35,684 nucleotides of DNA from an uncultured Ruminococcus sp. (GTDB lineage Bacteria; Bacillota; Clostridia; Oscillospirales; Acutalibacteraceae). Position numbers and translations under genes: made by a program. Positions 291-35,684 of this stretch are shown here, one piece after another. Each line of letters opens with the position of its first letter. Within the stretch, counting starts at the first letter, position 1. The stretch spans positions 1 through 35,684 of the forward strand of contig CACXFS010000020.1 of the NCBI GenBank assembly GCA_902766885.1. The letters are read 5' to 3'. The notes beneath the pieces are model-generated. The model worked only from the letters and a program-made list of their open reading frames with translations. It was not told the DNA's origin and made no database searches.

Positions 291-324
291 CAAAAAAAGA
301 AAAAAAGCAAGGATAAACCTTGCT
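291..324 (-). terminator. Terminator of the repeat-like small RNA
   Basis: On the minus strand AGCAAGG, loop TTTAT and CCTTGCT (arms 318-324 and 306-312) are followed by six T, one C and seven more T (305-292). This is a strong intrinsic terminator about 80 nt downstream of the start predicted from the promoter at 410-438. With no ORF between, it defines a short RNA gene. Confidence 0.85.
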
Positions 325-403
325 CTCTTCCTATTTTACATTTTTGCAAATATAAAATTAATAGTATTTCAATCCACAGGTAAAGCGCAGTGCCTTACCT
401 GAC
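291..403 (-). ncRNA. Candidate RNA anti-CRISPR: solitary type I-C repeat-like small RNA
   Basis: A minus-strand RNA of about 110 nt is defined by the promoter at 410-438 and the terminator at 291-324, with no credible ORF. Its first 38 nt (403 down to 366) read GTC, then AGGTAAGGC, loop ACTGC, GCTTTACCT, then GTGGATTGAAAT. The arms pair over 9 bp with one G-U wobble; a further C-G pair extends this to 10. Type I-C CRISPR repeats share this plan: GTC, a palindromic stem, then GTGGATTGAAAT. Here the stem is 2-3 bp longer than usual. Seven bases after the -10 is the G of GTC, so the RNA should begin at the repeat. The next 41 nt are spacer-like and fold into an A/U-rich hairpin with a GCAA loop. 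There is one repeat and no cas gene. Phages are known to carry solitary repeat units that bind Cas proteins as decoys. Alternatives are another structured sRNA or a decayed mini-array. Confidence 0.65.
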
Positions 404-409
404 AAACTC

Positions 410-438
410 ATTATATATCAGTTGTAATAAAAAGTCAA
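410..438 (-). promoter_or_regulatory. Near-consensus promoter of the repeat-like small RNA
   Basis: On the minus strand, -35 TTGACT (438-433), exactly 17 nt, then -10 TATAAT (415-410). The predicted start is about 403, the first base of the repeat-like unit. It diverges from the plus-strand promoter at 478-506; the two -35 boxes are about 40 bp apart in A/T-rich DNA. Confidence 0.85.
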
Positions 439-20130: not shown

Positions 20131-21177
20131 TTATTTTTTTCGCCACGCTTTTGCACGGCTTAAATAAATTTGTTTATTTTCATTATCAAGGCTATATTTA
20201 GCAATTCTTTCGCATTTTTTAGCTTGATTTTCATAATATGACTTCTGCTGTTCAAGTGCTTCCTGACGTTTCATATCGTCTATTTCGTCAGCCGTTGCAG
20301 GCTTTAAGGTTGTTATGCCCTCATAATACGTACTTGTACTGTCCTTGCAACGAGGGTGAAACAATCCGCCCGATATTGCTTCGGAAAGCAAAGGATAATC
20401 GCCGTCCTTTGCAGAACCGCCCGAATAAACATCATCAATAAACACCCTGCCGATATACGGTGCACAGTCAGGACAACCGCCTTGACGAGAATTAACTACA
20501 ACCGTTGTTATGCCGAACTCCTGCCGCTTTTCGCCCTCACCTCGAAGATACGCCCTCTTATTTGCAGTACGGATTGCCATTTCTGCATAGTCCGACAGCG
20601 TATGCCTTGCGCCGTTTTTATACTCAACGCAGTTAAGTCCTGCTCGGAGCATATCCCTGCAAGCCATATCTACGGCTTTTTCGTACGTTCCTGCGCCTGA
20701 ATTTGCATAAACCTGCGCATTAAAAATCGCACTGCGGTATTTGTCATTGCTCATTCGCAAAACGGCTGTTTCTGCGCTCTTTAAATCGTCTGTGGTCGAT
20801 TTTATAAGTGCGTTGAGTTTACGGTCGTTGACCTTAAAAAACTCCGCTGTGGACGTTTCTGACGGCTTATCGGGCAACTTAAAACCGTCTTTAACAGCTT
20901 GAAGTATTTTTGCTTCCTGTTCTGCGTTTCCGTTTGCTCTTGCGGTTTTGAGCATTTCATCAACCTTGCCGTTAAGCTCCGAAAACTGCTTATTGAATTT
21001 TTTTGAATTGTTCTTGCGGTACTGTTCAAGGCTTTTGAGCTGTTCAGCCTGCCATTGGGACCAGTTGTAACCCTCTTTGAGTTCCTCGGCTCTGTGTCGG
21101 CTGAAATTCCTCATCATACTGTCAATGAGTTCATTTTCAATCTCTTCAAAAGCCTTTGAAATATCATATTCATTCAT
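20131..21177 (-). CDS. Minor capsid protein (SPP1 gp7/phage_min_cap2-like), 348 aa
   Basis: A helical N-terminal half rich in Lys/Glu/Gln is followed by the conserved gp7-like C-terminal block: RAGLNCVEYKNGARHTLSDY, AIRTANKRAYLRGEGEKRQE, then a putative metal-binding part with CPDC and FHPRCKDS. Proteins of this type bind the portal inside the head and are injected or aid DNA exit. ATG 21177 lies 2 nt after the portal stop, so translation is coupled. Confidence 0.88.
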   Translation of the reverse strand: MNEYDISKAFEEIENELIDSMMRNFSRHRAEELKEGYNWSQWQAEQLKSLEQYRKNNSKKFNKQFSELNGKVDEMLKTARANGNAEQEAKILQAVKDGFKLPDKPSETSTAEFFKVNDRKLNALIKSTTDDLKSAETAVLRMSNDKYRSAIFNAQVYANSGAGTYEKAVDMACRDMLRAGLNCVEYKNGARHTLSDYAEMAIRTANKRAYLRGEGEKRQEFGITTVVVNSRQGGCPDCAPYIGRVFIDDVYSGGSAKDGDYPLLSEAISGGLFHPRCKDSTSTYYEGITTLKPATADEIDDMKRQEALEQQKSYYENQAKKCERIAKYSLDNENKQIYLSRAKAWRKK

Positions 21178-27466: not shown

Positions 27467-27940
27467 TCAACCGTTCGTCTTTTCCGAACTGTTTAACGCC
27501 CTCTCGGCTTCTTCTACTGACTTTATAATAGGTGTAACCGATATATTTACAGTATCTGCTTCTGTTATGCTTTCAGGTACTGTGCCAAAAATTTTTAAGA
27601 AGGTTCGGTCAAGGTATTCTTCTGGAATATCCCAAGCCATACCTTTCCATAACAAAGCGTGATGTCTGCCCTCTTTGTTCTTTCGTCTTTCCCAAATACC
27701 AACGATTTCGTTATGAGAAATAATAGTGTCTATTAAATCCTTAACCTTACACGGCAACTCAATAAATAAGGTGCGGTCTTTGAAATAATCACACTGAGCA
27801 ATTTGCATCTCATCTGTCTGATTGTGCTTATATGCTGTTTCAAATTCCTTTGCTATGCTACAAACATCAGCCTTAATGCAACTATCACAAATTGATTGCC
27901 TAATATTCTCGAGTGTTACTGTAGATTTACAATCTGCCAT
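27467..27940 (-). CDS. Early phage protein with Cys-rich N-terminus, 157 aa
   Basis: The start is ATG 27940 with GAAGGAGG; the reading from 28000 is an unsupported extension. The N-terminal half has CDSCIKADVCSIAKEF and later CDYF, a possible metal site; then a WERRKNKEGRHHALLWKGMA block and a hydrophilic tail. I know similar proteins from gut phages (ADVCSIA... and IPEEYLDRTFLKIFGTVPE) but no function is established. Confidence 0.75.
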   Translation of the reverse strand: MADCKSTVTLENIRQSICDSCIKADVCSIAKEFETAYKHNQTDEMQIAQCDYFKDRTLFIELPCKVKDLIDTIISHNEIVGIWERRKNKEGRHHALLWKGMAWDIPEEYLDRTFLKIFGTVPESITEADTVNISVTPIIKSVEEAERALNSSEKTNG

Positions 27941-34969: not shown

Positions 34970-35684
34970 CGGTTACTCCTCCTGCGTTCTAAAATCTTTC
35001 CGTACAAACCGCACTCCGAAAGCGGTACCTCTCTTAAAACTTTCGCTTCGGGTACTCTGACTTTTCCGTCTGTGTTTATCGGCATAATAATATCTTTAAT
35101 CTTTACTTCTAATTCGAGAATTGCAAGATTTGACCAGCTTCTGCCGAAGTCAAGAGCCCAAGCCAAATGAGATATATGTATACCTCTTCCACAATTATCA
35201 GTTATATCTGTACTGCAATGGGGTTCTGCAACTTTAGAACCTATTGTATACTTGAAATTGCTGTTGTGATTTGATAAAAATTCATTATCGACCTTATGGA
35301 CAGCCTTATAAAAAATAGCTGTAGTTTTATCGTGCTTGATACCGTAAAAGTTCATAAACTCTTCAATATTCTTAGGCATATAAACCTTACGAGCGTTGCC
35401 GGATATCTGAATACGACCACCTGAAAGTTGCCTGTCAACGACCTGCGCATTTCCATACGCTTCAACGGAGCTGTTGCCACACGCTTCAACGGAGCTGTTG
35501 CCACACGCTACAACGGAGCTGTTTTCCCACGCTTCAACGGAGCTGTTTTCCCACGCTACAACGGAGCTGTTTTCCCACGCTACAACGGAGCTGTTGTCCC
35601 TCGCTACAACGGAGCTGTTGCCACACGCTACAACGGAGCTGTTTTCCCACGCTACAACGGAGCTGTTGCCACACGCTTCAACGC
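34966..35684 (-). CDS. Octapeptide-repeat protein, 5' end cut by the window edge
   Basis: The reading frame is open to the window edge (first whole codon at 35682). The ATG at 35379 is internal, because the frame upstream is coding. At least nine octapeptides of the form SSV(V/E)A(W/C/R/Y)(E/G/D)N are followed by a transition (VVDRQLSGGRIQISGNARKV). The final 137 residues are non-repetitive, with IFYKAVHKVDNEFLSNH, CGRGIHISHLAWALDFG and GKVRVPEAKVLREVPLSE. The regular beta-prone octads suggest a beta-solenoid; the C-terminal domain resembles phage proteins with a GIH/GLHxS motif and no known function. It lies at the start of the visible early operon, away from tail genes, so it is probably cytosolic. 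Confidence 0.75.
   Translation of the reverse strand, partial: VEACGNSSVVAWENSSVVACGNSSVVARDNSSVVAWENSSVVAWENSSVEAWENSSVVACGNSSVEACGNSSVEAYGNAQVVDRQLSGGRIQISGNARKVYMPKNIEEFMNFYGIKHDKTTAIFYKAVHKVDNEFLSNHNSNFKYTIGSKVAEPHCSTDITDNCGRGIHISHLAWALDFGRSWSNLAILELEVKIKDIIMPINTDGKVRVPEAKVLREVPLSECGLYGKILERRRSNR
35449..35664 (-). repeat. Nine tandem 24-bp coding repeats
   Basis: The period is exactly 24 bp. Each unit carries AGCTCCGTTG then TAGCG or AAGCG, and one of four cassettes: TGGGAAAAC, TGTGGCAAC, AGGGACAAC or TATGGAAAT. The cassettes alternate irregularly, as expected from unequal exchange. A partial tenth unit continues to the window edge, so the full length is unknown. Confidence 0.9.

Follow-up and report, generated by a model that had tools for sequence, protein, structure and literature searches.

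A phage-borne RNA gene with a single type I-C repeat-like hairpin is a probable CreR mimic directed at the cas5c promoter of its host

The DNA analysed here, called the window throughout, is a stretch of 35,684 nucleotides that equals the entire contig G000:C20 in the draft genome (2,022,695 bases, 83 contigs) of an uncultured Ruminococcus sp. Among the 20 proteins scanned, phage genes for the large terminase, portal, major head protein, tape measure, endolysins and Sak4 were found. The left end of this prophage contig carries an RNA gene on the minus strand (438-298), in which a promoter and a terminator enclose a single hairpin that resembles a type I-C repeat and has GTGGATTGAAAT at its end. 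As a sequence-only reading of the window had proposed, the promoter consists of the -35 box TTGACT (433..438) and the -10 box TATAAT (410..415), separated by 17 nt. Six bases lie between the -10 box and the repeat-like unit (403-366), so that the unit begins at the seventh base, again as proposed, and transcription is predicted from the promoter to start near 403, at the GTC. The hairpin (377..401, minus) has the 5-nt loop that had been described but a stem of 10 bp, one pair more than the reported 9-bp palindrome. It is followed by the 11-nt handle TGGATTGAAAT (366..376), the 18-nt guide ACTATTAATTTTATATTT (348..365) and the bases GCAAA (343..347), all on the minus strand. The strong intrinsic terminator is also present, but its 15-pair stem and T run were located at 332-298 (minus) instead of 324-291.

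The coincidence of these elements had been judged to exceed chance, and shuffling of the window bears this out. An exact TTGACT-N17-TATAAT occurs once in the window (438-410, minus) against a mean of 0.02 in shuffles, and GTGGATTGAAAT occurs once (377-366, minus) against a mean of 0.01. The unit at 403-366 folds into the 10-bp stem and 5-nt loop with an unpaired 11-nt tail, UGGAUUGAAAU, at -14.5 kcal/mol (z -3.3; 1 of 200 shuffles equally good). For the longer stretch 403-285 the folding z is -6.2, and none of 200 shuffles folded as well. The pattern TATAAT-N5-7-GTC-N8-30-GTGGATTGAAAT was found at 7 places in 5 genomes among 161 congeneric genomes, the window copy included.

Other features of the window were also recorded. 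A Twister-P5 self-cleaving ribozyme (Rfam, 65.2 bits) lies at 707-761 between two small early phage ORFs. On the minus strand, 61-95 resembles by eye the 3' end of a tmRNA or tRNA gene and could be an attachment site; ARAGORN reported no gene there. At the opposite end (35430-35684), CAACGGAGCTGTT-based repeats lie within an open frame that runs off the contig.

The host carries type I-C cas genes, in agreement with the original description of the element as a solitary phage unit that mimics a type I-C repeat and has its own promoter and terminator. Contig C11 encodes cas3, Cas5c (TIGR01876, E 8.5e-48) and Cas8c/Csd1 (TIGR01863, E 1.9e-126), which define the system as type I-C. In a congener (G118), the gene order is cas3-unit-cas5c-cas8c-cas7c-cas4-cas1-array. 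Cas7 (PF05107) was absent from the hits in the window's own draft assembly, and the host cas contig terminates in an IS110-type transposase gene right after cas8c; this strain may therefore have a broken effector, or one that fell between contigs. The handle is present in 27 copies in the assembly, of which 25 belong to an array on contig C13 (repeat GTCACCCTCCACTCGGAGGGTGTGGATTGAAAT; the contig terminates inside a repeat), one to the window and one to C11. The phage handle is intact, with the same letters as the handles of the host array and of the C11 unit. The comparison with host repeats that had been suggested earlier holds for the GTC and the handle, which are shared with the 25-repeat array, but not for the stem, whose letters differ.

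The C11 copy belongs to a second solitary unit, which occupies the cas3-cas5c interval in the opposite orientation. It has a TATAAT box, a repeat with a short stem, a guide, and a hairpin with a T run that resembles a terminator. This host unit appears to be the CreR (cas-regulating RNA) proper, and the host appears to use its guide against its own CRISPR genes. The stem of the phage unit differs from that of the host unit, and the phage hairpin is longer and its promoter nearer to consensus. Such units do not seem to be general in the genus: 11 cas5c loci were found in 100 congeneric genomes, and the handle was present in the examined flanks of 3 and absent from those of 8.

The 41 nt between the phage unit and its terminator had been taken as a plain non-ORF stretch. 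The guide was overlooked in this description, and it is also found in the host cas operon. The sequence past the phage handle matches that operon at 97% over 35 nt (E 3e-10), and the phage and host-unit guides are identical at 22 of the first 23 positions. The sole difference falls at position 12, which is a free position in the unit family. Upstream of cas5c lies TTC-ACTATTAATTTAATATTT, to which each guide fits at 17 of 18 positions with position 12 as the one mismatch; 9 bp separate the end of the PAM of this target from a 12/12 promoter that reads into cas5c. When the assembly (2.02 Mb) was scanned with positions 6 and 12 left free, a single mismatch-free TTC site was found, at the cas5c promoter, and the next site had 2 mismatches. 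The reversed guide, used as a control, gave 1 match with at most 2 mismatches in the assembly. Within the phage itself, the best TTC site reached 11/15.

Guide positions 19-23 (GCAAA in the phage) are common to the phage and host units, yet are unmatched in the target. Since the agreement of the guides extends to these non-target positions, it argues for capture from a host-type unit over new evolution on the target, and the unit of the cas3-cas5c interval is probably of the type from which the phage guide was taken. Only on its own host does the phage guide reach 15/15. Across sister species, guide and target fit at 15/15 within a species against 12/15 when crossed, so both change together. 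The link between prophage and host, which comes from a draft assembly, is supported by the uniqueness of this guide-target fit.

The guide-target relationship was also followed across units linked to cas genes. Units were gathered by promoter and handle, blind to the target, with the exception of L039, which was found via the handle in a cas5c locus. From 23 loci, 17 further loci and L039, a set of 22 cas-linked units (from other genomes and from this host) was retained after removal of duplicates (L067, same as L074; L073, same as L066; L071, same as L063), the window itself (L075), array-like loci (L059, L070, L076, L083, L085, L086) and loci without a cas match (L047, L049, L052, L058, L062, L064, L065, L077, L078). 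For each unit, up to 400 bp on the promoter side were searched (168 bp in L048), and the best 18-nt match was taken as the target. Across the 22 units, mismatches were absent from positions 1-5, 7 and 9-11, and were present at positions 6, 12 and 18 in 17, 17 and 18 units, respectively. Mismatches climb from about position 16 and are near chance past position 18. In type I guides, each sixth base is flipped out, which accounts for the free positions. The flanking PAM is TTC in 18/22 units and TTT in 4/22. A match of at least 15/18 was reached by 14 of the 22 units, with the other 8 at 13 or 14, and by 6 of 1100 shuffled guides. The target overlaps the best operon promoter or lies within 13 bp of it in 21 of 22 units. 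The small gap accounts for part of this nearness, since 22% of all region positions, and 44% of those in the nearest 180 bp, would pass as near by chance. A short match with free sixth positions fits Cascade binding without cleavage, and would correspond to cas autorepression of the CreR type.

Related units have been found in other viral sequences. The pattern TATAAT-N5-9-GTC-N8-30-GTGGATTGAAAT retrieved 8 viral stretches and its -35-anchored form another 8, of which 3 had already been found. Together, 13 viral contigs gave 10 distinct units of the same anatomy; a near-identical unit is carried by L028, L029 and L032, and an identical one by L131 and L132. No second phage-host pair emerged, as the viral guides tested had no TTC site of at least 14/15 in the loci examined. 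One unit is common to L047 (Velocimicrobium porci) and L133 (a viral contig), and its guide had no target in the Velocimicrobium porci cas region (best TTC site 11/15). Another candidate, L064, is a Ruminococcus contig with a unit adjoining an integrase gene. It was rejected, as its only site is TTT-flanked, lies in an aminotransferase-like gene in 2 of 6 genus genomes and amounts to chance. Neither the sister-species guides nor those of Butyricicoccus pullicaecorum turned up in viral_contigs, a search for relatives by the left-end DNA of the window returned low-complexity noise only, and ten viral loci located through neighbouring proteins contained no T[GA]GATTGAAA unit.

Some of these units share neighbouring genes. 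The window encodes a cysteine-rich 177-aa protein at 1671-2204, and homologues lie near the solitary unit in L030, L028, L029 and L032, representing 2 of the 10 distinct viral units. Four annotated-phage regions with a homologue were examined, and in one (L144:3387) a hairpin followed by TGGATTGAAAT lies 0.4 kb off. A homologue is also present in L099, which has no unit. A different protein family is common to L064 and L031.

Units away from cas genes were observed as well. In L049 (1951-2147) and L052 (1941-2145), each guide has a TTC-flanked target, matched at 15/15 non-sixth positions, directly upstream of a small hydrophobic ORF. The encoded peptides fall slightly below the cut-off of Pfam Hol_Tox (E 6.5e-4 and 1.4e-4), and both genomes also have a Cas5c match. 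This ORF looks like a Cascade-repressed toxin of the CreTA kind. In L062 (1327-2036), a unit has its 15/15 TTC target at 1458, upstream of a gene with a GIY-YIG domain, which may be a further cargo gene under Cascade control.

The spacers of the host array have also been compared with the window. Two of the 25 resemble window genes, and 0 of 1000 shuffled spacers reached 25/34. Spacer 12 matches 20533..20566 (plus) in the minor-head-protein gene at 26/34 beside TTC. Its eight mismatches all fall in one codon phase, as expected if the spacer derives from the version of this gene carried by a related phage. Spacer 13 matches 27488..27521 (plus) at 25/34 with a 19-base run, at a site without TTC. 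The host has probably met relatives of the window phage.

How would such an RNA act? The anatomy of the unit, the identity of the guides, the unique target with its PAM, the match rule that runs through the family and the phage-like host spacers favour a phage-borne mimic of CreR that makes host Cascade repress cas5c-cas8c, to which we assign a probability of roughly three in four. The unit would be transcribed from its own promoter, from about 403. Cas5c would cut the hairpin before UGGAUUGAAAU to leave a normal 11-nt handle; we take this to be the type I-C cut site, which places the expected 5' end of the RNA at 376. The processed RNA would load into host type I-C Cascade and take it to the cas5c promoter region, where the TTC PAM and about three matched 6-nt segments would hold Cascade without a full R-loop or cleavage. 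Bound Cascade would lower transcription of cas5c-cas8c and the downstream genes, presumably to the benefit of the phage. The support comes from one phage-host pair. The unit resembles CreR in being, judged by its sequence, a crRNA-like RNA with a functional repeat handle, and in its limited guide complementarity (17/18) to the cas5c promoter beside a TTC PAM. CreR is encoded in the host CRISPR-cas locus and the phage unit sits on a phage contig, so that it is described here as a mimic of CreR and not as CreR proper.

The sequence-only reading had proposed a decoy aimed at a host type I-C system. The type I-C host is borne out, but the emphasis on the repeat is probably wrong, given that the unit has a full 5' handle and a guide. 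As an RNA anti-CRISPR (Racr), the RNA would tie up Cas5c and Cas7 in unproductive complexes, with the guide incidental. The unit is indeed a solitary repeat unit on a mobile element that resembles the host repeats, with a strong promoter and a long stem, and RacrIC1 is reported to inhibit a type I-C system and a non-targeting crRNA to lower type I-F interference (PMC10651486). However, a decoy needs no guide, yet this one equals the host's at 22/23 positions and has one perfect target at a cas promoter. RacrIF1 is described as being without a 5' handle (PMC10651486), whereas the phage unit has one. We consider this explanation unlikely, although titration of Cas proteins may add to guided repression; it leaves the guide unexplained.

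Capture of the guide would also be compatible with a non-functional passenger, a host CreR copy brought in by recombination. This is quite improbable, as promoter, hairpin, handle and terminator are all intact, the stem is unlike that of the host unit and the single guide difference falls at a free position. Least probable is a viral mini-CRISPR against rival phages. Such arrays have been described (PMC11656645; PMC6858448). A mini-array of this kind has at least two repeats around a spacer that matches other viruses. The window has a single handle and one repeat only, the 26-nt guide had 0 matches in viral_contigs by exact matching, and a perfect cas-promoter target exists.

Reportedly, phage mini-arrays that inhibit effector expression were predicted by Shmakov et al. 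in 2023; these share with the CreR-like phage unit a regulatory guide against cas expression, and the phage unit differs in its single repeat. CreR is known for types I-B, I-E and V-A (PMC13131331; PMC12737573). It is likewise a crRNA-like RNA, which through a partial match brings the effector to the cas promoter and so represses the cas genes; the phage unit differs in being phage-carried, type I-C and built on a single repeat. Racrs are also solitary phage repeat units acting against the cognate system, with a type I-C case tested in one report (PMC10651486), which adds that some solitary units may act via Cas-dependent transcriptional repression. Unlike them, the phage unit retains its handle and has a guide matching a cas promoter. 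The crRNA-like CreA antitoxin RNA of CreTA (PMC12737573) also guides Cascade to a promoter by partial match; the target of the phage unit is cas5c, not a toxin gene. CreR is thus already known and phage regulatory mini-arrays have reportedly been predicted; what would be new is a phage CreR mimic for type I-C, of which no report was found in the literature searched.

A more specific and tentative proposal, which we hold at somewhat less than even odds, is that the unit represents a guide-type RNA anti-CRISPR: a cas-silencing guide captured from the host and set after a hairpin that is different and longer and a promoter closer to consensus, with which an intact Cascade would shut its own operon. 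An anti-CRISPR protein that blocks the effector relieves CreR repression and raises the Cas supply (PMC12737573). A phage-made CreR would act oppositely: the effector would still function as a repressor, and cas expression would fall. If true, a guide-type anti-CRISPR would leave the effector unblocked, and may thereby escape both the rise in cas expression caused by blocking proteins and the freeing of toxins that Cascade might keep repressed in related hosts. As guide, target, PAM, handle and host copy are known to the base, the idea is directly testable. With the match rule (about 16-18 nt beside TTC or TTT, with positions 6, 12 and 18 free), one could also look for hidden cas regulators in Clostridia with type I-C systems, and for phage mimics of these regulators.
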